From assembly GCA_020532545.1 (NCBI GenBank), contig JAJBAW010000005.1, positions 1 through 64,000 on the forward strand: a stretch of 64,000 nucleotides of DNA, given 5' to 3'. Source of the DNA: Candidatus Cloacimonadota bacterium. GTDB taxonomy: Bacteria > Cloacimonadota > Cloacimonadia > Cloacimonadales > Cloacimonadaceae. The notes under the pieces were generated by a model, which was not told where the DNA came from, ran no database searches, and saw only the letters and a program-made list of their open reading frames with translations. Both the position numbers and the translations under genes were made by a program. Shown piece after piece: positions 2,767 through 59,037 of this stretch (positions within the stretch are counted from its first letter, which is position 1; every line of letters starts with the position of its first letter).

Positions 2767-3471
2767 ATGGACAAGCTTGCTTTTGTCAAGGTAGCCGAGG
2801 TTTCCGGCGTTATTGCCAGCCTGGCTGAAAATGAAATCGTGAAAATTGCCTCTGCGGAAGATTTCGACGCCATTGTCGATGCTGTTGCAGAGGACCTGCC
2901 CACCCAGTACGGGATGGACGATGTTCTGGCCAAAACGGCGGAAGTCATGGAGTACCTCTATGACAACGGCTATGGCGAAGGCCTGGAGAAGGACGCCGGA
3001 GAAGTCGATGAGCAGGAAGCACTGGCTTACATCGGTCAGCTGACTCTGGCCAAGGAAGCCGGCGAGATCTCGGAAGTTGACTTTGCCAAAGAAGCCAATC
3101 GCGTGGTGGATGCTCTGCGGGCGGCTGGTGTCCGGGCGGGCGCGGCGGGCAAGGATTTCGTAGGAGGCCTCTCGGGAAAGAAACTGCGTCAAACCCTGAA
3201 GGGTAACAAGGCCTTCAATGAGATGTTTACGGCCAAGAAAAAGAACCTGGATGACACTCTCAGCGGGGTGTTTGGCAAAGGCAAATCCAAAGTAAAAGCC
3301 GAGTATGCCAAGGGCCGCGTCGCTGACATTATCAAAGGCCTCAAGGGGGCCGGTGTCTCCAAAGGCTCCCTGAAACCTGGGGTTAAGCAGATCGCCAAAA
3401 CCTACGGCACAGTAGGCCTGGCAGGCGGCGGTATTTACGGCGCCAACAAACTGCGCAAACGCAAGCAGTAA
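2767..3471 (+). CDS. Virion-associated protein with repeated K-x-A motifs
   Basis: The start is placed at ATG 2767 because AAGGAGTT lies just upstream; an in-frame upstream start lacks such a site. The product has 234 residues. The N-terminal half is acidic and helical, with KVA, KIA, KTA, KDA and KEA triplets at intervals. The C-terminal half is very basic and ends with a Gly-rich hydrophobic segment (TVGLAGGGIYGANK) plus an Arg/Lys tail. No family is recognised. Its place at the head of the capsid module and the motif shared with neighbours suggest a virion-internal or maturation-processed protein. Confidence 0.55.
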   Translation: MDKLAFVKVAEVSGVIASLAENEIVKIASAEDFDAIVDAVAEDLPTQYGMDDVLAKTAEVMEYLYDNGYGEGLEKDAGEVDEQEALAYIGQLTLAKEAGEISEVDFAKEANRVVDALRAAGVRAGAAGKDFVGGLSGKKLRQTLKGNKAFNEMFTAKKKNLDDTLSGVFGKGKSKVKAEYAKGRVADIIKGLKGAGVSKGSLKPGVKQIAKTYGTVGLAGGGIYGANKLRKRKQ

Positions 3472-3477
3472 GTATTC

Positions 3478-3521
3478 GGGAGATACTCGGGGAGAGGACC
3501 TATTCTCTCTGGGTATCTCCC
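3478..3521 (+). terminator. Hairpin, weak terminator candidate
   Basis: GGGAGATAC (3478-3486 region) pairs with GTATCTCCC (3513-3521), with an inner AGAG/CTCT stem. Only CCTTT follows, so termination would be partial. It separates two head-module genes. Confidence 0.4.
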
Positions 3522-3552
3522 CTTTACCTAAGGCTTCTGGGAAGGAGCAGGC

Positions 3553-3975
3553 ATGGATTGGTATAACGTAGGCATGGAAAAGGTGGCTTTTCTCGGAGCC
3601 GGCAGGGCCTTTGTGTCTTCGGCTATCCGAGGGGTTAAGGCGTTACCTCGTGTAGCTAAGAATCTGAGAGTGCCTACCAACAAAATGTCTCCTTGGCAGT
3701 ATGCGCAGCAAGCGGCAACCACACAGCAGGGCTTCCGTAATAAGGCGAGCACCTTTTATCGGTCTCTGAAGGATTCCGCTGTCCGTGGCCTTGGCAGGGA
3801 CCAAGTACAGGGTCTACGCAACCTTGGCCGTGCTGGCAAGTACACCGCTTACACGGGAGGCGGACTCTACCTTGGCAACAAGGCCTTTGGCAGCAAACGT
3901 AAGGATGCAGAGCAGGCTCAGCAGTATCTAGCTGCTTACCTTCCCCAGGCTTATCCTAGATATTTTCAAAGCTAA
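3553..3975 (+). CDS. Small basic protein with Gly-rich segment
   Basis: This 140-residue protein has AAGGAG six bases before its ATG. It is strongly basic, has an EKVAF motif near the N terminus, a central Gln/Thr/Arg-rich part, and a Gly-rich segment (TAYTGGGLYLGNKAF) followed by KRK. That segment closely resembles the C-terminal end of the protein at 2767, so the two may share a membrane- or DNA-contact role. No family is recognised. A Tyr/Pro/Ala-rich tail ends the protein. Confidence 0.5.
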   Translation: MDWYNVGMEKVAFLGAGRAFVSSAIRGVKALPRVAKNLRVPTNKMSPWQYAQQAATTQQGFRNKASTFYRSLKDSAVRGLGRDQVQGLRNLGRAGKYTAYTGGGLYLGNKAFGSKRKDAEQAQQYLAAYLPQAYPRYFQS

Positions 3976-8702: not shown

Positions 8703-10636
8703 TCAAGATCGTTGAGCTGGGCTGTGATGTTCCGGAAACCGGGGAAGCCCGCGTCTCCCTGCTTGGGAATGGGAGTTTGATTAAAACGGCTTCCAACGAT
8801 ATTCAGAAACAGTGGGAGACCTTGAAAAAGGAGGAGGGAAAGGCCTACCTGCATGTGATCGCCATGACGGATTCGGAGAAGTATGGTCCCAACAATAATG
8901 GGGATTTCTTCTATGGGGATGACTTGCGCAAGTACCACCCGACCTTTGTCTCCAATGCGCATTTTTATTTGCACCATGTGAATAAGGATCCGAAAAAATC
9001 CATTGGTCGCCCCATTTTTTCCTTCTACAACGAGCCCATGTCCCGGGTGGAGTTGATCATTGAGATTGACAAAACCAACCCTATGGCAATGGGTGTGGTG
9101 GAGAAGATAAAAAAAGGGGAGGCAATCTACGTCAGTATGGGGGTCAAGGTTTCCCATGACGTTTGCTCGATTTGTGGCAACAAAGCTAAAACACGTGCGG
9201 AGTACTGCTCTCACCTGCGCTATAACATGCGCAAAATTCTCCCGGATGGTCGCCAGGTATATGCCATCAATCCCGCTCCGCTTCATTTCTTCGACATCAG
9301 CGACGTCAACCGTCCGGCGGACCGTGTGGCTTGGGCGTTACAAAAAGCCGCCAGTCAAGGATCTTCTTTTTTTGTAGAGGGATCGATGAAAACCTCTGCG
9401 GAACTTGGAGAGGATTTTGAACTTCAAGAGGCCTGCCTGCAGGGGTTGACGAAGCTTTCCCAGATGATCAAACAGGTTGAAGGGGAAGGAATTCAGGGGG
9501 ACCTGGGGGATGGCAAGCTGAAAGCTTTGCATAAGCTTAAGGAAACGTCCAAGGCGGAGCTGGAGTATCCGGTTCTTGGGGGCAAGGAATTGGAGGCTCT
9601 GCAACTTTCTCCTGGAGGGATTCTCCGCAGCATTCTGGGTAATGGAGTAGCTCCTTCCCTGTCGGAATTGGCTTATGCTTCTGGCCGGCATCACCTTGGT
9701 GAGGATTTTTCGGCAGAACATATTCCCTTGATGCTCAGGCTGCTTCCCGCAATCTTACCCCTACTGATGCAGCATCCTCGGACTCTTATGCCTCGGGCTC
9801 TGAGTATCTTTGGCGACTATCAAGGAGAATTGGATACTCCGGAAGTGGTGGTGAGGGTCACAAAGATTATTCAGCCCGTCGCCAGACGCCGGGCTCTGAT
9901 TATCAAGCAGGCCTGTACTTCTAAGGAATATGCAAAGCTGGCTTCTGACGTTTATCAGGCTCTGCAAAGTACCCATTTTCGGGCAGCGCCTGGCAGCCAA
10001 GTAGAAGGTGCAACAGCATTTCTGCGCAGTAAGTCAGAACGGGGCTGGTCCAGCGTCGGACGCCCCATGAACGAAACCTTCCGAGTGCAGGACCAGAATG
10101 GCCACGAACTGGTGGCTTCCCGGCAGGGCATCCTCGCCGCCCAGGAAGCCCACGGCAGCGCCAAAATGGTTACAGGCCTGTTCGGCGCCCTGGCGGGTCT
10201 GGCCGCCCTTGGTGCTGTCACGGTGGAACCGTCCCTGTTTGGCAAAGTGGTAGCCCCCTCGGCACTGGGCTTCCTGGCCTACAAACTCCTCAACGGCTCG
10301 CCGCATCCCCGGGTGGAAACCGCTGAGGGTGGAGAGATTCCGGTCAGCACCGTCTTCTCCAAAACCGCGGTACAGCAGCACAACCTTGCCCCGTTGATGG
10401 GTATGTCGGTTCCCGCAGCCCTGGGGTTGGATTACCTCTACAACCGGCATCTCAAGTACCGGCAGCATCCCATGCCGGAAGCCGAAATGGGCAGGACCCG
10501 CAGAGCTCTGTACAAGGGTGGGAGGTTTGTCACGGACAATCCGGTGACCAGTCTCGCCGCGGGAGGCATCGCAGGGACTCTGCTTTCCTTCGGAGGTAGG
10601 GATTTTTTAAAAGCCCTTCGTAATCTAAAAAAATAG
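8699..10636 (+). CDS. Prohead protease with zinc knuckle and long C-terminal extension
   Basis: This 645-residue protein has an N-terminal domain (residues about 45-215) resembling herpesvirus-assemblin-like prohead proteases. The phrase NAHFYLHHVNKDP places candidate catalytic His at 92/93, and YVSMGVKV places a candidate Ser at 146. A CSIC...YCSH knuckle (C156, C159, C170, H172) follows; this variant occurs in proteases of some large phages. The remaining 430 residues carry K-T-A triplets and several hydrophobic Gly/Ala-rich helices near 490-640. This fused tail is unusual. It would cleave scaffold and head proteins during capsid maturation. The activity is inferred, not shown. Confidence 0.7.
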   Translation: MIKIVELGCDVPETGEARVSLLGNGSLIKTASNDIQKQWETLKKEEGKAYLHVIAMTDSEKYGPNNNGDFFYGDDLRKYHPTFVSNAHFYLHHVNKDPKKSIGRPIFSFYNEPMSRVELIIEIDKTNPMAMGVVEKIKKGEAIYVSMGVKVSHDVCSICGNKAKTRAEYCSHLRYNMRKILPDGRQVYAINPAPLHFFDISDVNRPADRVAWALQKAASQGSSFFVEGSMKTSAELGEDFELQEACLQGLTKLSQMIKQVEGEGIQGDLGDGKLKALHKLKETSKAELEYPVLGGKELEALQLSPGGILRSILGNGVAPSLSELAYASGRHHLGEDFSAEHIPLMLRLLPAILPLLMQHPRTLMPRALSIFGDYQGELDTPEVVVRVTKIIQPVARRRALIIKQACTSKEYAKLASDVYQALQSTHFRAAPGSQVEGATAFLRSKSERGWSSVGRPMNETFRVQDQNGHELVASRQGILAAQEAHGSAKMVTGLFGALAGLAALGAVTVEPSLFGKVVAPSALGFLAYKLLNGSPHPRVETAEGGEIPVSTVFSKTAVQQHNLAPLMGMSVPAALGLDYLYNRHLKYRQHPMPEAEMGRTRRALYKGGRFVTDNPVTSLAAGGIAGTLLSFGGRDFLKALRNLKK

Positions 10637-45968: not shown

Positions 45969-47261
45969 TTAAAGAACGCTCTCCCAGTGGCCTGTGTTTT
46001 CCTGGGTAAGACTTTCCGAAGAGTTCCGGGTTCTTGAACAGGCAGAAGAGAGCCTCTCCAGAAAAACTTCAACAGATTCAACTTTTCTGTTGTAGGTTTT
46101 GAGAGCCAGAAAAACAGGCTCGGCCAGTCTCTGGGATACCCCTTGGGGATTTTCCCGCAGAAAAACACAGGCTTGAAACAGTTTTTTCAGGAGACTGCCC
46201 TGTTCTTTGCTGACAGAGTCTATGTAAGCCACGTGTCCTCGCATGATAGACAAAAACTGTTCATCCCTGGCGTGTTGTGTGATAGCAAAGACCGCCCGGT
46301 CTTCCCCCACATTTTCCGTGGGAAACTCTGCCGCTCGAAAAGGATATAAAGAGAAATAGGTGTTCGCTGCCTCTGTGACAGAGGTACGGCAAGCATTGAA
46401 CAATGCAGCACGAATCCGCTGAAACCGCTCAAGGTCCACCCGGGCTTTCACATTCAAAACGACTCCGAGAAACCGCTGATTACGAAAAGGGTGGTTCTTC
46501 GGGGTAACAGACCATTTGTGCGTTTGGAATCCTCTGCGGGACATCACCACATGTACGTATTGGCGATATTCCTTAATAAGCTCTAGGGGAGCGTCTCCAT
46601 CGACAAACAGCACCAAGTTGTCACAGTAACGCACGTACTCTAGGGAGGCCCGGGGGTATTCCTTTTGCTTTCGCGCTACCCAAGCCAAAATATCCCTGTC
46701 GTACAGCGCATATCCCACCAGATTGGAAAGCAGGGCACTGCAGGGAGACCCCTGCTGCAGTGTATGTACCCAACGGTCGCTCTGTCTCCTACGTACAATG
46801 CAGTAGCGGGCAATCAGCTTCGCGCCTGCCTCCGACATAGCTCCCAGAGCACACAGTGTCTTGACTATTTTACGCATGGAAATGTTGTCAAAGTACCCTT
46901 TGATATCACAATGGACCATGTACTTCCTGCCCAGATATTTTTGCAGCTCTTTTTTGTAATTCACCCCTTTGCGGTACGCCAGTAGATGTTCATGCGGAAA
47001 GCTGTCTTGTATTTGATCAAAGGGGATATTCAGCGCGGTCTGGATACGCGCCAGAGTCGTATCTGACTTGTAGGTATCCCGTCCCTTGACTTTTACCAAG
47101 TGTTGCATATGGTTGCGGCGCAGACTCCCATTCTTATCTTTTCCTCCCACCCAGGACAAATACTTGGTCTTGATCTTCAGGAGAGCCCCCAGTTCATCCC
47201 AGCCGTGCACAAGACTCAAAGGAGAGTCAAATACCTCTTCTGTATATTTTTGGCACTTCAT
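45969..47261 (-). CDS. Retron/group II-like reverse transcriptase with YCDN active site
   Basis: This 430-residue protein has RT motifs in order. AYRKG (95-99) leads into motif A HCDIKGYFDNIS with Asp 119. Motif B is QGSPCSALLSN (170-180). Motif C is RYCDN (211-215), where the second Asp of YxDD is Asn. A later FLGVVLN (264-270) is the equivalent of the VTG-like region. Motif B is of retron/group II type and lacks the SQ signature of diversity-generating RTs. The N terminus (about 1-80) and a 150-residue C-terminal end are of unknown fold. ATG overlaps the upstream stop (TAATG). The template and product are unknown. Confidence 0.8.
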   Translation of the reverse strand: MKCQKYTEEVFDSPLSLVHGWDELGALLKIKTKYLSWVGGKDKNGSLRRNHMQHLVKVKGRDTYKSDTTLARIQTALNIPFDQIQDSFPHEHLLAYRKGVNYKKELQKYLGRKYMVHCDIKGYFDNISMRKIVKTLCALGAMSEAGAKLIARYCIVRRRQSDRWVHTLQQGSPCSALLSNLVGYALYDRDILAWVARKQKEYPRASLEYVRYCDNLVLFVDGDAPLELIKEYRQYVHVVMSRRGFQTHKWSVTPKNHPFRNQRFLGVVLNVKARVDLERFQRIRAALFNACRTSVTEAANTYFSLYPFRAAEFPTENVGEDRAVFAITQHARDEQFLSIMRGHVAYIDSVSKEQGSLLKKLFQACVFLRENPQGVSQRLAEPVFLALKTYNRKVESVEVFLERLSSACSRTRNSSESLTQENTGHWESVL

Positions 47262-48013
47262 TACAATCCTCCCGTTATTTCACAAATTGAAGTCAGGTAG
47301 GTATCCACAGCGGAAGATACTTTCTGGGCTTTACGTAATGGGCTTTCTATAGTAGCAGGAGCGCTTCTCCAACGTATATAATGAGCCAAAGGTACTGAAA
47401 TACTTTTTGGAGGCAACCACACCCCGTTATAGCAAAGCCCTACCAAAGATTGGGCCCTTCCCTCCAGGCGGAGCCCCGGAAGCTTGTACCTGTAAACTCG
47501 GGAAGACGCCCCCCTCAATCCCCCCACTATTCTATGATGGCGCGTAGCGGAATTAAGATAAGCCAGTGGGAAGAGGGCATAGTACTGAGTGAACAGTTTC
47601 TGCATCGTATAGGGGTTAGCAGCGGCAGAGAAGGTTAAATAATCGTATCTGGAAAAAGAAATTATCGCGGCGTTTGGAAATAGGCTTCTCAGACGGTATC
47701 GGTTTTCCTCCTTATTAAACCAATCCTTGTTTACAAAAAACAGGTGCCGGAAGGATTTATACGCCGTTTTTCTCGGCAAGACGGGAGTGTCTCCTGCAGC
47801 GAGATCCACCGACAAGAGGCAGGGAGGAGACTCGTTCCCATGATCCTCGTAGAAAGTCCCTTCTCGGAGATCTTCAAGGCTTAGAGTTCTTTGCTCAAAA
47901 GAGGGGGATAGGAGCTGTTCAATCTCCGCTACAAGCTGTGGAGGCAGGCTTCCAGGGTCTTCAAAGTTCTCCAAAACAAGGTCATCTCTTTGCTCATCGC
48001 TTTGCGTAGGCAT
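47261..48013 (-). CDS. Unknown partner protein of the RT cassette
   Basis: This 250-residue protein lies first in the cassette and is translationally coupled to the RT; GGGAGGA within its last codons serves the RT. AAAGGA precedes its ATG. Residues 1-85 are acidic and helical, 85-175 aromatic-rich (FRHLFFVNKDWFNKEENRYRL; ALFPLAYLNS), and 175-250 basic (RYKLPGLRLEGRAQ). No membrane helix, nuclease motif or known family was recognised. Coupling implies it acts with the RT as regulator, effector or nucleic-acid partner. Confidence 0.6.
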   Translation of the reverse strand: MPTQSDEQRDDLVLENFEDPGSLPPQLVAEIEQLLSPSFEQRTLSLEDLREGTFYEDHGNESPPCLLSVDLAAGDTPVLPRKTAYKSFRHLFFVNKDWFNKEENRYRLRSLFPNAAIISFSRYDYLTFSAAANPYTMQKLFTQYYALFPLAYLNSATRHHRIVGGLRGASSRVYRYKLPGLRLEGRAQSLVGLCYNGVWLPPKSISVPLAHYIRWRSAPATIESPLRKAQKVSSAVDTYLTSICEITGGL

Positions 48014-48056: not shown

Positions 48057-48072
48057 CATGTTCTTATAACAA
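48057..48072 (-). promoter_or_regulatory. 16-base element before RT cassette
   Basis: The minus strand reads TTGTTATAAGAACATG, 44 bases before the cassette start. The same sequence with one change (T for A) lies 28 bases before the Sm-like gene at 52426-52441. It contains a TGTT...AACA dyad, so it could be a promoter core or operator. Confidence 0.45.
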
Positions 48073-49924: not shown

Positions 49925-51505
49925 ATGGCGGTGGTTGAAGTAGCTCTAGATTTGACAAAGGCCGATGCTGCTCAGGCGTTGCTGCACCTGGAGGGTCGGC
50001 CTTATTCATTGCGCAACTACCCAATGTTTGTGGATATCTTTAACTCTCCCTGGCCTCGAGTCCTCATGAAATCCGGGCGACAGGTATCCAAAACCATCAC
50101 TATGGCCGCGTTGATGGTGACCGATGCCTCCATGGTACCTCACAAACCTTCCCTGTACGCCAATGCCTCTGGAAATCAGACCAGTTCTTTTTCCACGTCG
50201 AAACTCGATCCCTTTCTCCTGCACAGCCCCGCGATTTATCACAACCTAATGCAGGCCAAGAACGTCTTGAATAACGTGCTGTATAAGCGCTTTGCCAACT
50301 GGTCAGAATTGCGCCTTACCTACTTTTCTGAATCGGCGGACCGAGTACGCGGTATTTCCGGACACCACTTTTACCTGGATGAGATACAGGACATTCTCTA
50401 CGACGCCATCATTGACGCAGAGGAGTGCCTGTCCGCAGCCAGTGATCCTCGATTTACCTATGCGGGGACCTCTAAAACCCTGACTTCGACCCTGGAGTTT
50501 TTCTGGACGTTGTCCACACAGAAATCCTGGGTAATCAAGTGTGAAGCTTGCGGTAAGTGGAATCTGCCTTCCATTGAAAATATTCAGCGCAAGGGCCTGT
50601 GCTGTAAAAAGTGCGGACACTTGCTGAACACTTTTAAGGGTATTTGGCGCTCCATGCGGGAGTTTGATGGAAAAGAGCCCCTTTTCGATGGCTACCATAT
50701 TCCTCAAATTATCCTGCCTTTGCACTGCAACAGCCCGGAAAAGTGGGCCAAACTCATTGAAAAAATGGAGACCTACCCCTCCTATAAATTCAATAACGAA
50801 GTTCTGGGGCTTCCCGAAGGGGAAGGTGATTCTCCCATAACCGAGGATATGCTGCGGAAGGCTTGTATACCTGAGCTTCGCATGGAAACCCGGCTGACGG
50901 AACACAACGCCGCGGGAGCTACCTATTTCGTGGCAGGTATTGACTGGGGGGGAAATGGCATTGAAGGAACCAGTCGGACTACCTTATCCGTGTACGCGGT
51001 GTATCCCGAGCGAGTACAGAGCACAAAAATCTACGGCCAAATCTTCGGGCCGGGCGATCCCACCAAGCATGTAGAAGAAATCTCCTCCGCCTTGAAGCGC
51101 TTCGGAGTGCATATGGCTTTTGGTGACCATGGCGGGGGAAACTTCGCCATGGCCATGCTGCAGAATATCACCCCTACTGTACGCATCGTGCCTGTGATGT
51201 ATACGGATCAGGCAGCCCCCTATCGTTGGGATGAGGATGCCCATCGCTATACAGTGAATCGTACCCGACTGATCGATGCCTTTTTCATGGCCATGCGCAC
51301 CGGAGAGGTTCATACCATGCGCTGGGAAGATTTCCAGAGGTTTTCTCCAGATATTCTCGCTGTCTATCAGGAAATCATCGGAGATAATCAGGGGAAAGGC
51401 CGACGTGTTTGGCGCCGCTATCCCTCGAAGCCGGATGACATCCTGCATAGCATGGTGTTTGGCTGGTTCGCCGCCCGTGTCATGAGTGGCAATATGGAGT
51501 TCTGA
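49925..51505 (+). CDS. Terminase large subunit
   Basis: This 526-residue protein has an ATPase domain with Walker A-like GRQVSKT (51-57), Walker B FYLDE (149-153) and a coupling motif GTSKT (181-185). Its nuclease domain carries Asp in AGIDWGGNG (340), FGDHGGGN (401) and SKPDDILHS (504/505). An inserted zinc ribbon CEACG...CCKKC (206-230) lies between ATPase and nuclease. It packages DNA into procapsids. The Walker A lacks the second Gly, as in several phage terminases. Confidence 0.9.
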   Translation: MAVVEVALDLTKADAAQALLHLEGRPYSLRNYPMFVDIFNSPWPRVLMKSGRQVSKTITMAALMVTDASMVPHKPSLYANASGNQTSSFSTSKLDPFLLHSPAIYHNLMQAKNVLNNVLYKRFANWSELRLTYFSESADRVRGISGHHFYLDEIQDILYDAIIDAEECLSAASDPRFTYAGTSKTLTSTLEFFWTLSTQKSWVIKCEACGKWNLPSIENIQRKGLCCKKCGHLLNTFKGIWRSMREFDGKEPLFDGYHIPQIILPLHCNSPEKWAKLIEKMETYPSYKFNNEVLGLPEGEGDSPITEDMLRKACIPELRMETRLTEHNAAGATYFVAGIDWGGNGIEGTSRTTLSVYAVYPERVQSTKIYGQIFGPGDPTKHVEEISSALKRFGVHMAFGDHGGGNFAMAMLQNITPTVRIVPVMYTDQAAPYRWDEDAHRYTVNRTRLIDAFFMAMRTGEVHTMRWEDFQRFSPDILAVYQEIIGDNQGKGRRVWRRYPSKPDDILHSMVFGWFAARVMSGNMEF

Positions 51506-51508
51506 TCT

Positions 51509-51547
51509 AAAAAAAATCCCGAGTGCTTTTGCCTCGGGATTTTCATT
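51509..51547. terminator. Bidirectional terminator at terminase end
   Basis: ATCCCGAG (51516-51523) pairs with CTCGGGAT (51533-51540), flanked by A8 and T-rich runs. On the minus strand eight T follow the stem, so it is stronger in that direction and would end any minus-strand transcript crossing the structured region to its right. Confidence 0.85.
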
Positions 51548-52170
51548 CTTTCACTCACTAAGCGGGGGAGAAGGCTAGCCTTTTGGGTAGCCTTCTGCTT
51601 GGTTTGGCAGACTATGTCTGCCTGTCAGAGATGGAAAATGACCCATCTGAGTGAAACTCTTGTCTTCTGTCTTGGGCCCGTCTGGGGCGGGTTGAGGTTA
51701 CTATGAGATCTATTCCATGCTCCAGCCGATGGTCGGTTGAAAAAGTCTTCAGAGTGCCTGTAGGAGCACCGCTCCGGAAGGCTACCTGAAGCTTTTTCAT
51801 AAGACCTCGAGCTGGAAAAAGTAAGTGCCGGACTTTGTCCGGCTTATTCTTTTTCCAAAGAATAATCTAACCTCTAAGTGTTTCCAGTACAAACCTGTTC
51901 TTTCTAGGAAGGTATGCTCCGAAAACACCCATCTTTCTGTCCTGCTTACTCCTCTCTACTATGGCTAGACCGGGTGGGATCCGATCCGCCGGCGCCGCAG
52001 GATGACTGGGTGGGGGTGACCGCGTCCGCGTGCCATCTCGGTCTCCAAGGGAAGCCTCAACCTCCGGTTGAGAGTGCCGAAGGCACGTGCTTCCTAGAGG
52101 AGACCCCTCGTAGAAGACAGACTTTGTCTGCCGATGGAGAGGTTCTTCTCCATTCAACTAGAAGGAGTTT
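51548..52170. ncRNA. Candidate large structured non-coding RNA region
   Basis: About 620 bases hold no convincing gene but many hairpins. The left part holds 51569-51596 (9 bp); 51606-51622 (7 bp); 51738-51799 (TGAAAAAG with CTTTTTCA plus CTTCAG with CTGAAG, around GGAGC/GCTCC); and 51814-51856 (a near-perfect long hairpin). The right part has a branched unit: GGTCTCC 52040-52046 with GGAGACC 52099-52105, enclosing GGAAGC/GCTTCC, which encloses two hairpins (52056-52072 and 52074-52086). Hairpins at 52118-52130 and 52135-52152 follow. Stems with G/C pairs and nested junctions are not explained by coding. Strand is unresolved; the terminator at 51509 and the Sm-like gene upstream favour minus. 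Families such as ROOL or GOLLD occur in phages, but membership was not tested. Confidence 0.55.
51612..51800 (-). CDS. Possible 62-residue protein within structured region
   Basis: A minus-strand frame starts ATGAAAAAGCTTCAG with CGAGG just upstream. It encodes a basic 62-residue protein with no recognised motif. Its first codons are part of an inverted repeat (51738-51799), so translation might be blocked or the apparent frame may be fortuitous. The terminator at 51509 would serve it. Evidence is balanced between a small gene and RNA. Confidence 0.25.
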   Translation of the reverse strand: MKKLQVAFRSGAPTGTLKTFSTDHRLEHGIDLIVTSTRPRRAQDRRQEFHSDGSFSISDRQT

Positions 52171-52398
52171 TTACTTCCGGGCAATGCTGGCTACATGGTC
52201 GAGGTTAATGAGGGCTTCCCGTACGCTGAGCTCCCCATTAGCCAGCGTGACTTCAGATCGAAGCGTAAAGAATTTACCCTTAGTGGACACGACCGTACCG
52301 GTCAGGGCCGCTCCGCCGTAGATAAATACTCTTGCCTCTTTCCCCAGCCAGGCTTGTATCGCTTCGTAGCCCATTGGTGAAAATGTCGTGTCAGTCAT
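52171..52398 (-). CDS. Sm/Hfq-like small protein
   Basis: This 75-residue protein has an N-terminal helix (about 10-20, GYEAIQAWLGKE). An Sm1-like strand set follows (RVFIYGGAALTGTVVSTKGKFFTL), where G-x-x-L-x-G matches the Sm1 core. The Sm2-like end is ALINLDHVASIAR. Sm and Hfq proteins form rings that bind U-rich RNA. AGGTGATGTC precedes its ATG. It sits next to the structured region 51548-52170. The fold is inferred from pattern; no database check was possible. Confidence 0.55.
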   Translation of the reverse strand: MTDTTFSPMGYEAIQAWLGKEARVFIYGGAALTGTVVSTKGKFFTLRSEVTLANGELSVREALINLDHVASIARK

Positions 52399-52425: not shown

Positions 52426-52441
52426 CATGTTCTTTTAACAA
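52426..52441 (-). promoter_or_regulatory. 16-base element before Sm-like gene
   Basis: Minus strand TTGTTAAAAGAACATG differs at one base from the element before the RT cassette at 48057-48072. It lies in the 94-bp gap between DNA polymerase and the Sm-like gene. Confidence 0.45.
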
Positions 52442-52492: not shown

Positions 52493-55396
52493 TTAGGCAA
52501 CGGCTTTCTTGGCCTCCCCATAGCTGGGACCATACCCAACGTCATATTTCCAGGGTACCGGAAGCCAGGGAGCTTTTTCACGGATATTCTCCATAATGAT
52601 TTTGTCCAACAGCTGCTTCATACCGGTCTGTCCTTTAGGGGCCTTGAAGCCGATGGAGTCATGCACGGTAAGAATGATTCGACCTTCCCTGGAACGGAGA
52701 GCCTCCCGCAAATCGATCATGTTGGTCTGCACCAAATCATTGCTGGTGGTCTGAATACGAGCATTCACAGCCTGCCGACTGATACCGTTAAGCAGACTGC
52801 TGTTGTACGACGCTGCGGCATACCGGCGCTTGCGCCCCGTGAAGGTGTAGGAAAATTTATGCCTTAGTGCAAAGTTGATGGTATTTCGGATATAACGGGC
52901 CACTCCAGGATAGGTTTTGAAAAACTTATCGAGATACTCCTGAGCTTCCTGCTCAGAAACCCTAATACGCATATCCGACCACAGCTGGGCAGCCAGCCCT
53001 TTGGCACTCATCATATATATAGTGCCAAAGTTAACTTTCTTAGCAATCTGCCGCAATACATAGTAGGGAGTTGACTTATCCTCTTTGTAGAGGCAGAGGT
53101 CTTCGTAGCTGTACTCCCCCAAGCCCGCAGCAGTCAGGCAATGCAAATCCTTGTCTTCCAAAAATGCCTGGGTTAAGGCAAGGTCCCGACTGTACGCTGT
53201 CAGAACACGCATCTCCGCATTGGCAATGTCCAGGTCATAGAAATCCTCCTCTTCCGGGTTATCCGGAAGGAACAAGGCCTTCAGATTGAGAAAAAGTTCT
53301 AAGTTACTGATTTTTAACAGGAAGGGGACGTTCTGAAGGTTGGGGTCACTGCTACTCAACCGGCTTGTAGCCGTCCCATTCTGATGGTACTTCCCATGCA
53401 AGAACCCATCGAGGGCGGATTTCTGCAGCCAGGGATTCAGGTACGTCCCCTTGATCTTCTCCATCCTCCGCCAATCCAGAAAATAGTTGAGGAACACATC
53501 ATCCGGAAAGTCATCTGAGAGGAACTTGATTGTCTCGGCGTCAGTGCAGGGAGCTCCGGCATCCGTTTTCTTGATGATCGGCAGCTTCTTGTCTTCATAG
53601 AGGTATTTGGCAATAGCATTGCCATTGCTCAACGGAAAAGTGTACCCTATATCCGTGAAGATCTTATCCTCCACTTCTGCCATTTTCTCTTCCAGGATTT
53701 TGATGTATTCCTTGGTGCGCTCCCGGTCCAATCGCACCCCGTAGAACTCCATCTCGGAAATCAGATCCGCCATAGGATTAACGATATTCCGCACCGTCCA
53801 CATCAACGGCTGCATCTGCAGAGGCTTTTTGATCTTTTTCTCAATCTTCAGAACCCTTAGGGCTTCCTCTTTCAGCCTCCCCAACTGCTTAAGCATGATC
53901 TTACGCGTCATTACCCCGTCTACTGCGGCATAGAGCAGCAGTTTCGGAACAGCTAGATCCTCATAGGTAACCTCGGGCGTAATCTCCGGAGGTTCGAACT
54001 CCAGCGGTATCAACAGTTCTTCCCGAGGTACCTTGCTCAGTAGCTTGAAGATCACCCCAGCCGACTTCTTGGTAAGAACAAGCTCCCCTTTGGATTTTTT
54101 ATACTTGGGCTCTGTCAACCCCTTGGATTCCGTCATGCTCAAAAATTTCCGGGAGATCCATCGGGAGTTAAGGCTGCGCCGTTCTGTATCCGTCAGGCTC
54201 AGCCAGTAGCTGACATAAGCCTCCACCAGTTTTTCCCGGTACGCTTTTACCGCCTCTTTGAGGGTTTCTTTTCGCGCCTTTTGCAAAGAAAGCTTCTCCC
54301 GCTCCAAATCCTCCTCGTAGCGGGTATCCGTAGGGAAATAGTCTGTAGCCAACACCTTCAGAGAATACTCGCCTTTCTTTCCCTCATCCAACTGGTGCTC
54401 TATCAACATGGTATCCCAAGTCACCTCGGGGGTTTTCAGGCCTTCATGATAGCGCAGCCACTGCTGGTCAAACTTTGAGTTGTGCATAACGAGAGAAAAA
54501 GCCGGGTGATGCATGACCTGCAGTAATTTATCCCGAATTCTCTGGAAGTGTTCTTTCGAGAAAGGCAAAGCCCGATGCTCCCAGGGGAACGCCAGGCCTT
54601 GATTGTCTTCCCAAGACATAGACACCATGATACAGCGCTGTTTTGGGTCGTGGGGTAACAAGGAGGTAGTCTCCGTATCCACAGCTACCGGACGTTTTTT
54701 ATTTTCTGCATGGGACTTGTCCAGTGCTGCCAGGCACTCATCCAGCTGTGCCACTATGCCTTCGCAGTCGGTCGGAGTACGGATATCCAGTTCATCACAA
54801 TTGATGCCTGAAGACAGGTACCCAAAAGCTTTTTCAATATCGCGCTTGAGGACCGTGATATATCCTGTCTCCTTCAACACTTGTACAGGTGAGATTGTTG
54901 GTAAAACTGTATACTTGACCCCTCCATAGTGGATGGTCTGAAATACTCCTCGAATCTCCCCATGCTTTTGCCGAAATCCCAAAGCCTTAGCGGCATCCGC
55001 GCCTAAGGGGATCAGAAGTTTCGGTTTGGACAGATCGAGTCGAGCTTGTAGTTGGTGACTGCACTTCTCTAAGTCTTGCTGCTTTATTTTGTAATTAAGT
55101 TCCTTGGGGACACAGCGTACAGCATAGATATACTCTGCACTAAACTGCTCAGCCCTAGGAAGCTTGCTCTTAATCTCGCTGACAAGATTACGCAACAGCC
55201 ACCCACCTTTACTGCAATACGCTCCTTTCTCTGCGTCAATATCCATGGGAAATCCTGCAATAAAAGTAATGTCCTGGTGCTGAGCCAGAGCATATTTACA
55301 GAACTCCTCTGTGTAGAGCCGACACCCAGTACAGGGCGTAGGCTTTAGACAAATAGCTTCTTCCTCTGCCAACAATTTTTTAGCTGTGTCTACCAT
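52493..55396 (-). CDS. Family A DNA polymerase with N-terminal Fe-S glycosylase-like domain
   Basis: This 967-residue protein begins with a uracil-glycosylase-superfamily-like domain. Cysteines C22 and C25 (CTGC), C95 (VRCVPK) and C112 (EKCSHQL) match the Fe-S cluster spacing of family 4 UDGs. However, the catalytic GEAPG loop is replaced by AGFPMD, so glycosylase activity is doubtful. A 3'-5' exonuclease follows (VDTETTSLL Asp 240/Glu 242; MHNSKFDQQW; YAAVDGVM). The polymerase domain has motif A DLDIANAEMR, motif B RQIAKKVNFGTIY and motif C VHDSI (912-915; the more usual residue is HDE). It replicates phage DNA. Confidence 0.85.
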   Translation of the reverse strand: MVDTAKKLLAEEEAICLKPTPCTGCRLYTEEFCKYALAQHQDITFIAGFPMDIDAEKGAYCSKGGWLLRNLVSEIKSKLPRAEQFSAEYIYAVRCVPKELNYKIKQQDLEKCSHQLQARLDLSKPKLLIPLGADAAKALGFRQKHGEIRGVFQTIHYGGVKYTVLPTISPVQVLKETGYITVLKRDIEKAFGYLSSGINCDELDIRTPTDCEGIVAQLDECLAALDKSHAENKKRPVAVDTETTSLLPHDPKQRCIMVSMSWEDNQGLAFPWEHRALPFSKEHFQRIRDKLLQVMHHPAFSLVMHNSKFDQQWLRYHEGLKTPEVTWDTMLIEHQLDEGKKGEYSLKVLATDYFPTDTRYEEDLEREKLSLQKARKETLKEAVKAYREKLVEAYVSYWLSLTDTERRSLNSRWISRKFLSMTESKGLTEPKYKKSKGELVLTKKSAGVIFKLLSKVPREELLIPLEFEPPEITPEVTYEDLAVPKLLLYAAVDGVMTRKIMLKQLGRLKEEALRVLKIEKKIKKPLQMQPLMWTVRNIVNPMADLISEMEFYGVRLDRERTKEYIKILEEKMAEVEDKIFTDIGYTFPLSNGNAIAKYLYEDKKLPIIKKTDAGAPCTDAETIKFLSDDFPDDVFLNYFLDWRRMEKIKGTYLNPWLQKSALDGFLHGKYHQNGTATSRLSSSDPNLQNVPFLLKISNLELFLNLKALFLPDNPEEEDFYDLDIANAEMRVLTAYSRDLALTQAFLEDKDLHCLTAAGLGEYSYEDLCLYKEDKSTPYYVLRQIAKKVNFGTIYMMSAKGLAAQLWSDMRIRVSEQEAQEYLDKFFKTYPGVARYIRNTINFALRHKFSYTFTGRKRRYAAASYNSSLLNGISRQAVNARIQTTSNDLVQTNMIDLREALRSREGRIILTVHDSIGFKAPKGQTGMKQLLDKIIMENIREKAPWLPVPWKYDVGYGPSYGEAKKAVA

Positions 55397-55482: not shown

Positions 55483-58400
55483 TTAAATATCAAAATCCTC
55501 CACGTAAGAGAGGTCTGTGGCTGCAGCGCTCTCCTCAATCACCCCAGAGGGCTCTGCTATTTGCTTGGGGGGTATCGGTTTCATCCCGATACTGGGGAGC
55601 CCGAGATAGGCTATATCCACCACGGTGTAGTCCATGGGGGTTTGCACATCATGCAAGCCCAACGACTGCACAATAAGTTGGTGCTGTTCAGGTGTCACAG
55701 AGTCCCAGCTATGACAACAGCGAGCGGCCATATCCCGTAAAGCAACCACGGGTTTACGGATGTACTCGTAGTTGCCCTGCATCAACGAGCTGTGGACCAG
55801 ATACCGCCAGACCAGGACAATGACCTGAAGCTCTGAGACAAAGTAAACGCCAGTACGGAGGTTGTTGAGGATGTGAATTTCCCCCTCCTCCAAAAGCGTT
55901 TTAGCGGAGACCTTGCTGATCGCTCCGTCTTCTCCGTGGACAAACAGCTTATCCGGTACCAGGCAGGCATCTATGACGGGTATTGTGTTGTTGGACATGC
56001 TGATCGCAGCAAGACGATCCTTGTACTTCGTCAGAAAATCTATATACATAGCGTCCGCGTCGTAGCCCAGCATCTCGTATACGGCCAATGGAGTCAGGAC
56101 ACTCTCCATGAAACGGGTAGACCGATGCAGGTCCCCTGCAATCTCCGGGAGACGCTTTCGCAGAATGTTACGCCTGCGGTAAATCTCTGGAATCCGCGGT
56201 AGGAGGCAGATAGTGTTGTTCTGCTGCAGACGTAGATACTCCTCCTCGGTAAAGTGCTCAAAGATGTGCTGATCTGGAGGCTTACGCCCCTGATCCTTGA
56301 CCGTGCTGATGATCAGGATACGGCTCAGAAAAACACTATCCGACGGGGTGTTGATCGCTGCCAGGATAACCGGCATCTGAATTTTGTACTGCCGGACTGA
56401 CGTTCCGTCGGCGCCTCCTCGAGTTACTGTACTGCCACCTTGTGGAACCCGATACAACAAGGTCATGATCTCCCGGTTACGCTCCTCCGCCTTGGAAGCC
56501 CGGATGGCTCCGGTTTCTTCAGCTTCATCCAGTACATAGGCCAGCGTAGATTTCTGCATGGTCTGATACAAAGAAGCCGCGGTGGCATCGTTAGCGGTTA
56601 CAGCACTTTCCAGCAAGCTAGGAGGCAGGGTTTTACCTGGCTTGACTTCCTGGTTGGGGCCCCCGAGAATGCCGTGGATCAAAGAGGATTTCCCGGATTC
56701 CGCCTGACCTGTGATGAAGGTAATGGAGCTTTCCCCCACCGAGGCCATGATCGGCAGAGACATGATATAGGCCGCCAGGAAAGGGTTAATCATATCGTTG
56801 TGTTCAAGCTTCCACCCATCCAACACCGTGCGTATGGCTCTATAGTGGAATTGAAGATCCACGGTATTGGCCCGTTCCAGGTCTGTGGTCTCCTGAACAA
56901 AGGACCAACGGTGGATGGGACTGAGATTCTCAAACAGGACTTTGCCATCAATATTGCTTTTTAACTCCTCCCAAGTGAGCTGATCATCCTGAGAAAAGCG
57001 GCCACGGAAGACTTTCTTTCCATTTACGAAGTAGACCGTGTCACCTTTCCTCCGGTACTCTGCCGGGATATTGGAATAATGGATACCCTGCGTCAGGGTT
57101 GCCAGCTCTTCAACATTGATGGCGTCAGTGAGCATGGACTCTGCCACCTCTTTTAGCAGTTCCCAGGCATTCCGCTTTTTGATGGAAAGCATTCTCCCAG
57201 GCTCGGTTTCCTCGTCTATCCCTTCCAGGTAGATGTGGTTATTTCCGAGGATCTGATCAAAGAACTCCATCCCGGTACGTCCGGTACTGGCAGCTACCAG
57301 GTTGAACAGGGCATTTTCGTTCTTGGGTTCAAACTCCCAAAGTTCACTCTTATGTACTGCCCAGCATTTATACTGCGTCCGACCACCTTTCCTTTCGTAG
57401 TAAGAAACTCGCAGATAATTGCTCAGCTGTTTCTTGATAAGCGCCAAACAACTGGCTAGGGTGGTTGAGGAAGCCAGGGCCTCGTTTACTGAGGAGACCT
57501 GAGAGAGGTCCACGTTGAACCGACTGGCTACTGCAGCGATGTAGGCTTGGCACTCCGAGGGATCGCTCAGAAGCCCAAACCACTTTTTGGCTTCGTCGTA
57601 CGATTTCTTGTCTCGCTCCGCCACCAGGTTTTTCAAGCGGTTTTCATAGCCCTCCACTGTAGTGTCCAGGAGGTGCAAAGCCTGATTGTATTGCTCCTGG
57701 AGATCCTCTATGGCAGAGCAAGCCTTCTCGGTAACCCAGCTGGCTGCGTTCAGAAAATAAGCATTGCGCTGATGAAACAGGTAATTGAGCATTACCTCGT
57801 GCCCGCAGAACTGCACGGCATCATCGAGGTCCCCGCCCAGCAGCTCATGAGGCCAGGTAAAAATCCGAAGGCTTAGCGGCTGGCAATCCAAAGTCTGTGT
57901 AAAATTGGCTTTGGAATTCAGCACCCGACAGGCATACTCGTCTCCCCGCTTCTCCCCGGGCCGATCAGGCACCAGCCAAATATGCCGGACTCCGTACTCC
58001 CGTAGAAAAGCCAGGTCCACGGTGCCCGACCCACCCGAACTGACGATGATAAAATCCATGGTACCGGTCAGGTCCTGAGCCACCATGGCAGCGAAGGCAT
58101 CAAACTCCCCTTCGGTAACATAAACACTGGTTTCGTTGTGCCCCAGGAGGCGTTGGTACCGGTGCAGCCCTGTCACCCCGTTCGGAGACGTTTTATCTTC
58201 TCCGATGTTGACGATGCCACTTTTACGGAAAGCCTCCCGCAAAATGTGCGGAGGAAGTTCTTCCAGAGGAACTCCGGCATTCCTCTCTATAAAGGTGGGA
58301 TCTATCGGACGTACTTTGAAGCGGGCAATGGTGCCAGGGGAGTCGTTACTGTGGGTTACTACGCTCCCCCATTTGCTGCCGGATTTGTTCTCGGTACTAA

Positions 58401-59037
58401 AGTACTCGTCGTAGAGGGAGTGCAAATCCGGATCCTCAATATACTTCTTGGCATGTTCCGGCTTGGCAAAGACCCCCACAGGGAGGTTAGGCAGGGAGGT
58501 TACCGGGATGCTTCGTGCTTTGGTCAGATACAGAAACGCCAAATGCACATACTCCAGATGCTTGGGACGATCCCGTACCCACTCTTCCAGCACCTTTGAG
58601 AACGCTATGGCTGCAGCTTTTTTCATTTCCTGCAGCTGGTTATAATTGTTGAGTTCGTCCAGATTGGACAGAGAGGAGGAGAGGTTGAAACGGTTATGCA
58701 GAAGCAGCAATGCCTCCTGCATGGACATGTTCCCTACTTTGGCAATCAAGGACACCGGATTGGTGACAAACTTTTCACAGGTGCCAAAACATTTCCCTAA
58801 ACCCCGAGTTAGGGAGATGCGAAACGAAGGTGTCTTTTCATCATGATATGGGCAGCACCCGGAGATGGAAGCTTGACCTTTCTGCTCCCACTTATTGCCC
58901 GGAGACAGTTCCCGCAGTAAAGAGAGCCACTCGGAGGCAGATATAACTGTCCAAAGTCTCCGCAGTTCTTCTTCGGGGCGTCCTGCCTTTCTGCTTGCTG
59001 TTTTCTTTGTTCCCCGAGATCTCTTGGGAGAGGCCAT
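55483..59037 (-). CDS. DnaG-type primase fused to helicase/ATPase
   Basis: This 1184-residue protein has an N-terminal CHC2 zinc finger (CCPYH at 61-65, CFGTC at 83-87). A TOPRIM-like region follows (VTEGEFDAFAA; IWLVPDRPGEKRGDEY), then a long middle part. Near 770-850 an ATPase has Walker A GQAESGKSS and Walker B AYVLDEAE. It combines primer synthesis and DNA unwinding, acting with the polymerase. The C terminus ends SYVEDFDI. AAAGGAAATTGTT precedes ATG. A single polypeptide of this length is typical of large phages. Confidence 0.8.
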   Translation of the reverse strand: MASPKRSRGTKKTASRKAGRPEEELRRLWTVISASEWLSLLRELSPGNKWEQKGQASISGCCPYHDEKTPSFRISLTRGLGKCFGTCEKFVTNPVSLIAKVGNMSMQEALLLLHNRFNLSSSLSNLDELNNYNQLQEMKKAAAIAFSKVLEEWVRDRPKHLEYVHLAFLYLTKARSIPVTSLPNLPVGVFAKPEHAKKYIEDPDLHSLYDEYFSTENKSGSKWGSVVTHSNDSPGTIARFKVRPIDPTFIERNAGVPLEELPPHILREAFRKSGIVNIGEDKTSPNGVTGLHRYQRLLGHNETSVYVTEGEFDAFAAMVAQDLTGTMDFIIVSSGGSGTVDLAFLREYGVRHIWLVPDRPGEKRGDEYACRVLNSKANFTQTLDCQPLSLRIFTWPHELLGGDLDDAVQFCGHEVMLNYLFHQRNAYFLNAASWVTEKACSAIEDLQEQYNQALHLLDTTVEGYENRLKNLVAERDKKSYDEAKKWFGLLSDPSECQAYIAAVASRFNVDLSQVSSVNEALASSTTLASCLALIKKQLSNYLRVSYYERKGGRTQYKCWAVHKSELWEFEPKNENALFNLVAASTGRTGMEFFDQILGNNHIYLEGIDEETEPGRMLSIKKRNAWELLKEVAESMLTDAINVEELATLTQGIHYSNIPAEYRRKGDTVYFVNGKKVFRGRFSQDDQLTWEELKSNIDGKVLFENLSPIHRWSFVQETTDLERANTVDLQFHYRAIRTVLDGWKLEHNDMINPFLAAYIMSLPIMASVGESSITFITGQAESGKSSLIHGILGGPNQEVKPGKTLPPSLLESAVTANDATAASLYQTMQKSTLAYVLDEAEETGAIRASKAEERNREIMTLLYRVPQGGSTVTRGGADGTSVRQYKIQMPVILAAINTPSDSVFLSRILIISTVKDQGRKPPDQHIFEHFTEEEYLRLQQNNTICLLPRIPEIYRRRNILRKRLPEIAGDLHRSTRFMESVLTPLAVYEMLGYDADAMYIDFLTKYKDRLAAISMSNNTIPVIDACLVPDKLFVHGEDGAISKVSAKTLLEEGEIHILNNLRTGVYFVSELQVIVLVWRYLVHSSLMQGNYEYIRKPVVALRDMAARCCHSWDSVTPEQHQLIVQSLGLHDVQTPMDYTVVDIAYLGLPSIGMKPIPPKQIAEPSGVIEESAAATDLSYVEDFDI

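Follow-up and report, generated by a model that had tools for sequence, protein, structure and literature searches.

The locus and its neighbors

The DNA analyzed here is a stretch of 64,000 nucleotides (the window, in whose numbering positions are given) of an 89,983-nt phage contig that lies in a bacterial genome bin. A non-coding segment, 51506-52170, separates the large terminase gene terL, which is read on the plus strand and ends at 51505, from a 75-aa ORF on the minus strand (52171-52398). The gene order on the minus strand is a primase-like protein (55483-59037), family A DNA polymerase, the 75-aa ORF, a tandem array of RNA modules and a putative terminator hairpin (Table 1). Judged by its sequence, the hairpin is a strong terminator that would serve as the end of both the array transcript and terL. 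T-run hairpins are found on the minus strand at the equivalent position of the related loci L008, L010, L015 and L016; in L009 and L014 the hairpin at this position is missing or in the opposite orientation.

Table 1. Features of the array locus, in window positions
Feature	Position	Strand	Evidence and details
Large terminase gene terL	49925-51505	+	PHROG 675, E=1.7e-47; convergent with the array; relatives 51-68% identical
Predicted terminator hairpin, CCCGAG..CTCGGG	51509-51545	.	8 T on the minus-strand side, TTTT on the plus side
Tandem RNA module array, 3 modules	51549-52163	-	Folding, descriptor scan, relatives
Module 3	51549-51656	-	P1 51649-51656 / 51549-51556; P4 51629-51648; P3 51606-51622; P2 about 51567-51598
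Module 2	51694-51874	-	P1 GAGGTTA/TAACCTC (51868-51874 / 51694-51700), then GA; P4 51844-51865; P3 51827-51843
Module 1	about 52034-52163	-	P4 52134-52153; P3 52116-52132 (GGCAGAC AAA GTCTGTC); branched P2 52040-52106
Predicted Sm/Hfq-like protein gene, 75 aa	52171-52398	-	AlphaFold2 model, PDB fold matches, homologues in 12/12 genomes
Promoter-like TGTTAAAAG	52432-52440	-	Upstream of the Sm-like gene; recurrent motif, putative function
Family A DNA polymerase gene	52493-55396	-	PHROG 17, E=1.8e-125; upstream, on the array's strand

The predicted fold energy of the non-coding segment is -296 kcal/mol on the plus strand and -280 on the minus strand (z = -9.07 and -8.41, respectively), none of 20 shuffles folds as well, and a 200-nt piece of the segment ranks second among the 255 windows of a structure scan of the whole 64 kb. 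The top-ranked 200-nt window of that scan lies in the area 3340-3560, just past a gene end, where a very stable long hairpin of ~19 bp (fold z = -5.3) is possibly a terminator. Two mechanically called ORFs, of 96 and 135 aa, overlap the segment. Neither is conserved: blastn gives no significant match between this region and the corresponding loci of relatives, yet its structure recurs in them, which argues that no protein is conserved here, and a protein-coding reading is rejected. Direct DNA similarity to the region was found neither in phages nor in 60 related genomes. An earlier note on this DNA had described 51548-52170 as hairpin-rich, non-coding and of little coding potential, and it is borne out by the z of about -9, the shuffles and the lack of a conserved ORF. 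The sequence confirms the three-level nested junction that it had placed at 52040-52105: inside the stem GGTCTCC/GGAGACC lies a second, GGAAGC/GCTTCC, and inside that are two hairpins, the whole constituting the branched P2 of module 1. Its picture of a single large ornate phage RNA survives in part: the RNA would be large and structured, with compensating changes among relatives, but is organized as a series of modules on the minus strand rather than as one 620-nt fold.

Relatives of the locus

Relatives were reached through the neighboring terminase and polymerase genes. Locus searches with single proteins yielded none, whereas alignment-based searches succeeded: the terminase, aligned with two distant phage terminases, retrieved ten viral contigs (51-68% identity), and later alignment searches added L056, L064 and L071. 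With duplicates counted once, the genomes number 12, that of the window among them, all from one phage group: L017 equals L008 (identical over the 3.1 kb compared), L067 equals L009 (identical over the array), L072 is taken as a duplicate of L015 (matching sequences), and L012 and L064, whose ends overlap, are read as one genome; the viral contigs among these relatives may be partial. Two of the relatives' records come from isolates of Desulfovibrio (D. piger PG-251-APC-1 and Desulfovibrio sp. An276), which suggests that the window phage's own host is probably a Desulfovibrio-type bacterium. A descriptor scan of the distant terminase relatives L018-L048 gave scattered background matches and no array. 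In the related-order genome G039, the terminase (L003, 54-2201, minus strand) has an apparent intein-like insertion between RQVGK and SETSAV.

Architecture of the modules

At the equivalent site the DNA of the relatives is non-coding and strongly structured over 0.5-1.3 kb, with 3-9 modules per array where counted and a module length of about 95-235 nt. The modules share one plan: a closing helix P1, hairpin P4, hairpin P3, an unpaired linker, a long and variable P2, a second linker, and P1'. P1 is often 7-12 bp, differs in sequence from module to module and is followed by one to a few nucleotides, mostly with G first. P3 consists of 7 bp capped by an NAA triloop and is followed by about 10 A/U-rich unpaired nucleotides before P2 (mostly about 9-11 nt where measured). 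The linker from P2 to P1' usually ends in AG; that motif is missing in L015 and L016, which mostly have AUC, UCU or UUC at this place. The length of P2 varies too much to suit a covariance model of the whole module. The clearest array is that of L015, with six tandem modules of 126-143 nt each. In L010 the array is at a different place in the locus, still directly behind the Sm-like gene, and in L014 some modules also lie upstream of that gene.

The modules of the window conform to the plan to differing degrees. Module 2 has a P3 of GCCGGAC AAA GTCCGGC, a 9-nt U-rich linker, a long P2 and an AG preceding P1', its P1 taken alone not being significant against shuffles. The P1 of module 3 scores 9 against a shuffle mean of 6.2 (p=0.024), and its P3 triloop, AUA, is the sole exception to NAA. 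For module 1 there is no confident P1 candidate, none scoring better than shuffles.

Pairing, covariation and strand

The 10.4 kb of arrays contain 49 hairpins with an NAA triloop whose stem has 6 or more bp, against a mean of 1.9 and a maximum of 5 in shuffles; 40 of the 49 have a stem of exactly 7 bp. Among 42 distinct P3 sequences, 98.3% of cells are paired and the covariation score is 0.981 (0.244 when shuffled, at most 0.25 when slid), counts that are inflated towards structure by the selection of P3 hairpins for pairing, a bias with little effect on the wobble and AG tests. The compensating changes that the earlier note had asked of relatives are found at all 7 pairs of P3, each altered on both sides. 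Read on the minus strand, the wobbles of P3 in a set of 46 modules comprise 36 G-U and 4 A-C (p = 1.9e-7, an approximate value, some members having been added by known P3 sequence or by eye); without the loop-closing pair the count is 23 to 4. The first module search scored G-U and A-C equally. This bias argues that P3 acts as minus-strand RNA.

Single P1 helices often fall short of significance: P1 reaches p<=0.05 against shuffled downstream sequence in 19 of 46 modules, with a mean score of 8.4 versus 6.6, and AG stands immediately 5' of P1' in 19 of 33 modules where 2.1 are expected (p = 8e-15), this motif having played no part in the detection of P1.

A predicted Sm/Hfq-fold protein beside the array

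A small ORF adjoins the array on the same strand in all 12 genomes, with the pattern VRVYL..GAVLSG......GK...V.N....ALVNLDH.VSIT. This tie between gene and array is absent from the earlier note. The AlphaFold2 model of the window's protein (pLDDT 85.5) has one helix and five strands; a second member, 24% identical to it, is modeled at pLDDT 82.5, and both models have one or two N-terminal helices followed by five strands. In the PDB, the folds that they match are mostly those of Gemin6/7, Hfq, archaeal Sm and LSm proteins (E about 1e-3, prob 1.0). The 75-aa protein is accordingly modeled as having the Sm/Hfq fold. Its sequence does not reach the cut-offs of the curated Sm/Hfq families: the Pfam-type matches all lie below cut-off (Hfq_1, E=0.004; Hfq, 0.02; DUF6897, 7e-4; MM0924, 0.001) and the PDB profile matches are weak (E 0.02-0.7).

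Beyond its own phage group the protein was found in none of 50,697 phage records, scans of viral contigs recovered only loci of the group itself, and order-level host genomes gave only weak matches, mostly within long open frames. Canonical Hfq (PF17209) was found in none of 40 genomes of the host's order in a search whose controls (E. coli, B. subtilis and Caulobacter) were positive.

The motif TGTTA(A/T)AAG precedes the Sm-like gene in eight phages, that of the window among them, and close variants of it do so in two more. The window has a second copy, TGTTATAAG, at 48063-48071 (minus strand), upstream of the minus-strand gene 47261-48013. A sigma-factor-like protein of RNA polymerase is encoded by the phage itself (61551-62525, minus strand; PHROG 351, E=2.7e-16). 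The recurrence of the motif, together with the contig's own sigma-like factor, suggests that the Sm-like gene and the array may form one transcription unit.

A proposed phage ribonucleoprotein

The recurrence of the modules, their strand, their helices and the linkage of the Sm-like gene come directly out of the computation. The explanation that best accommodates them, and that is fairly probable, is that the region is a minus-strand array of modules which would form a phage-encoded ribonucleoprotein with the phage's own Sm-like protein. The array would be transcribed on the minus strand together with the Sm-like gene upstream of it, the transcript ending at the predicted terminator beside terL; the Sm-like protein would then assemble on the modules. 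The probable binding site is the A/U-rich stretch that links P3 to P2, because unpaired RNA flanked by stems is what rings of Sm and Hfq proteins bind. Conserved gene order alone could, on the other hand, explain the position of the Sm-like gene. The role of such a particle would most likely be phage-owned RNA regulation, or RNA stabilization, in hosts that lack Hfq; this is the least certain step, and any particular role is put forward with much less confidence than the ribonucleoprotein itself. The notion that the ribonucleoprotein is of a new phage class, in which the Sm-like protein is combined with an array processed into separate trans-acting RNAs for RNA regulation, guiding or counter-defense in Hfq-free bacteria, is a possible one against which the balance is tilted.

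The eleven other phages keep the combination of array and Sm-like gene despite wholly changed RNA sequences, which points to an undescribed RNA-protein system; no description of an Sm-like gene arranged with an RNA array was found in the open-license literature. Because the locus is compact, comes with a candidate protein partner and belongs to phages with relatives in sequenced Desulfovibrio isolates, binding, processing and knock-out can be tested directly.

Alternatives and comparison with known systems

Rfam has no match for the window or for nine relatives' loci, and permissive scans of three arrays found no family. Judged by the Rfam covariance models, the RNA belongs to none of ROOL, GOLLD, OLE and HEARO, the families against which the earlier note had proposed a check. 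The low-score Rfam matches (BSnc120, MicC and similar) fall on the terminator hairpin, far below cut-off. Elsewhere in the loci the only Rfam matches are a tRNA in L010 and a group I intron, the latter beside the DNA polymerase gene of L009 (9593-9804, minus strand). The L010 tRNA (9915-9990, minus strand, CAU anticodon) sits between two modules of the array; it is the sole match of ARAGORN and the tRNA covariance model, and a tRNA or tRNA-like nature of the modules is rejected. The window and seven other relatives contain no tRNA genes.

ROOL and GOLLD are large structured phage RNAs whose function is not known, and are located near tRNA islands; ROOL is without a known protein partner (PMC12286853). 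The array resembles them in being a large elaborate phage non-coding RNA, in one relative with a tRNA gene nearby, and differs from them in its variable number of tandem modules and in the Sm-like protein gene that is always adjacent. That it should be an ornate particle of RNA alone, folding and multimerizing in their manner with the Sm-like gene merely neighboring, is rather unlikely. Its phage origin, a comparable total size (0.5-1.3 kb), the L010 tRNA between modules, and a P3 whose constant length and NAA loop resemble a tertiary docking element would all suit such a particle; the lack of an Rfam match, an organization in 3-9 modules rather than one conserved fold, and the presence of the Sm-like gene in every genome do not.

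Unlikely, too, is a structured 3' untranslated region acting in cis only, which stabilizes the Sm-like mRNA or autoregulates it as a sponge that takes up the encoded protein. The array does lie directly downstream of the gene, on the same strand and with the putative terminator after it, but up to 8-9 modules, and in L014 modules upstream of the gene, are in excess of what the stabilizing of a 3' end would call for.

The stem-loop arrays of TIGR-Tas systems are tandem, occur in phages, adjoin a gene for an RNA-binding protein and have 8-12-nt spacers (PMC12045711). Here, likewise, tandem phage hairpin modules lie by the gene for a small candidate RNA-binding protein, with a terminator after them, and the P3-P2 linker of about 9-11 nt invites comparison with those spacers. 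A guide-RNA array of this type, its modules cut apart and its unpaired linkers serving as spacers for the partner protein, is nevertheless distinctly improbable. The protein here is Sm/Hfq-like and there Nop; the modules here measure about 95-235 nt and are built as four-helix junctions; no dual-spacer layout was recognized, the P3-P2 linker having about 10 nt and the other, where measured, an unequal 15-20 nt; and no complementarity to the rest of the window is longer than 15 nt. No box C/D pattern was recognized by eye in the modules. The Nop domain of Tas (PF01798) was found neither in the phage's own genome bin, with the 90-kb phage contig, nor in ten relatives' records, in a search that could miss a very divergent Nop domain and in which most viral records may be fragments.

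An element acting as DNA hairpins (a replication origin, a packaging or a recombination site) would fit a place rich in inverted repeats between terminase and polymerase genes, but is extremely improbable because the strand-biased wobbles (36:4) are what is expected of RNA and not of DNA hairpins.

The preferred reading, a ribonucleoprotein of array and Sm-like protein, has two further counterparts. OLE RNA is an ornate RNA with dedicated Oap protein partners; the array is like it in being an ornate RNA with a dedicated, here candidate, protein partner, and unlike it in lacking a match to the OLE model, in its phage locus, in its repeated modules and perhaps in its Sm-like candidate partner. 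From Hfq-sRNA and Sm/LSm ribonucleoproteins the system differs in being encoded by a phage at a single compact locus that includes an RNA array, in belonging to no known sRNA family and in having a protein that falls below family cut-offs; with them it shares a predicted Sm-fold protein and a structured RNA with an A/U-rich unpaired stretch between stems. If an Sm-type protein does pair here with its own RNA array, the Sm/Hfq theme would be extended to a virus-owned ribonucleoprotein.
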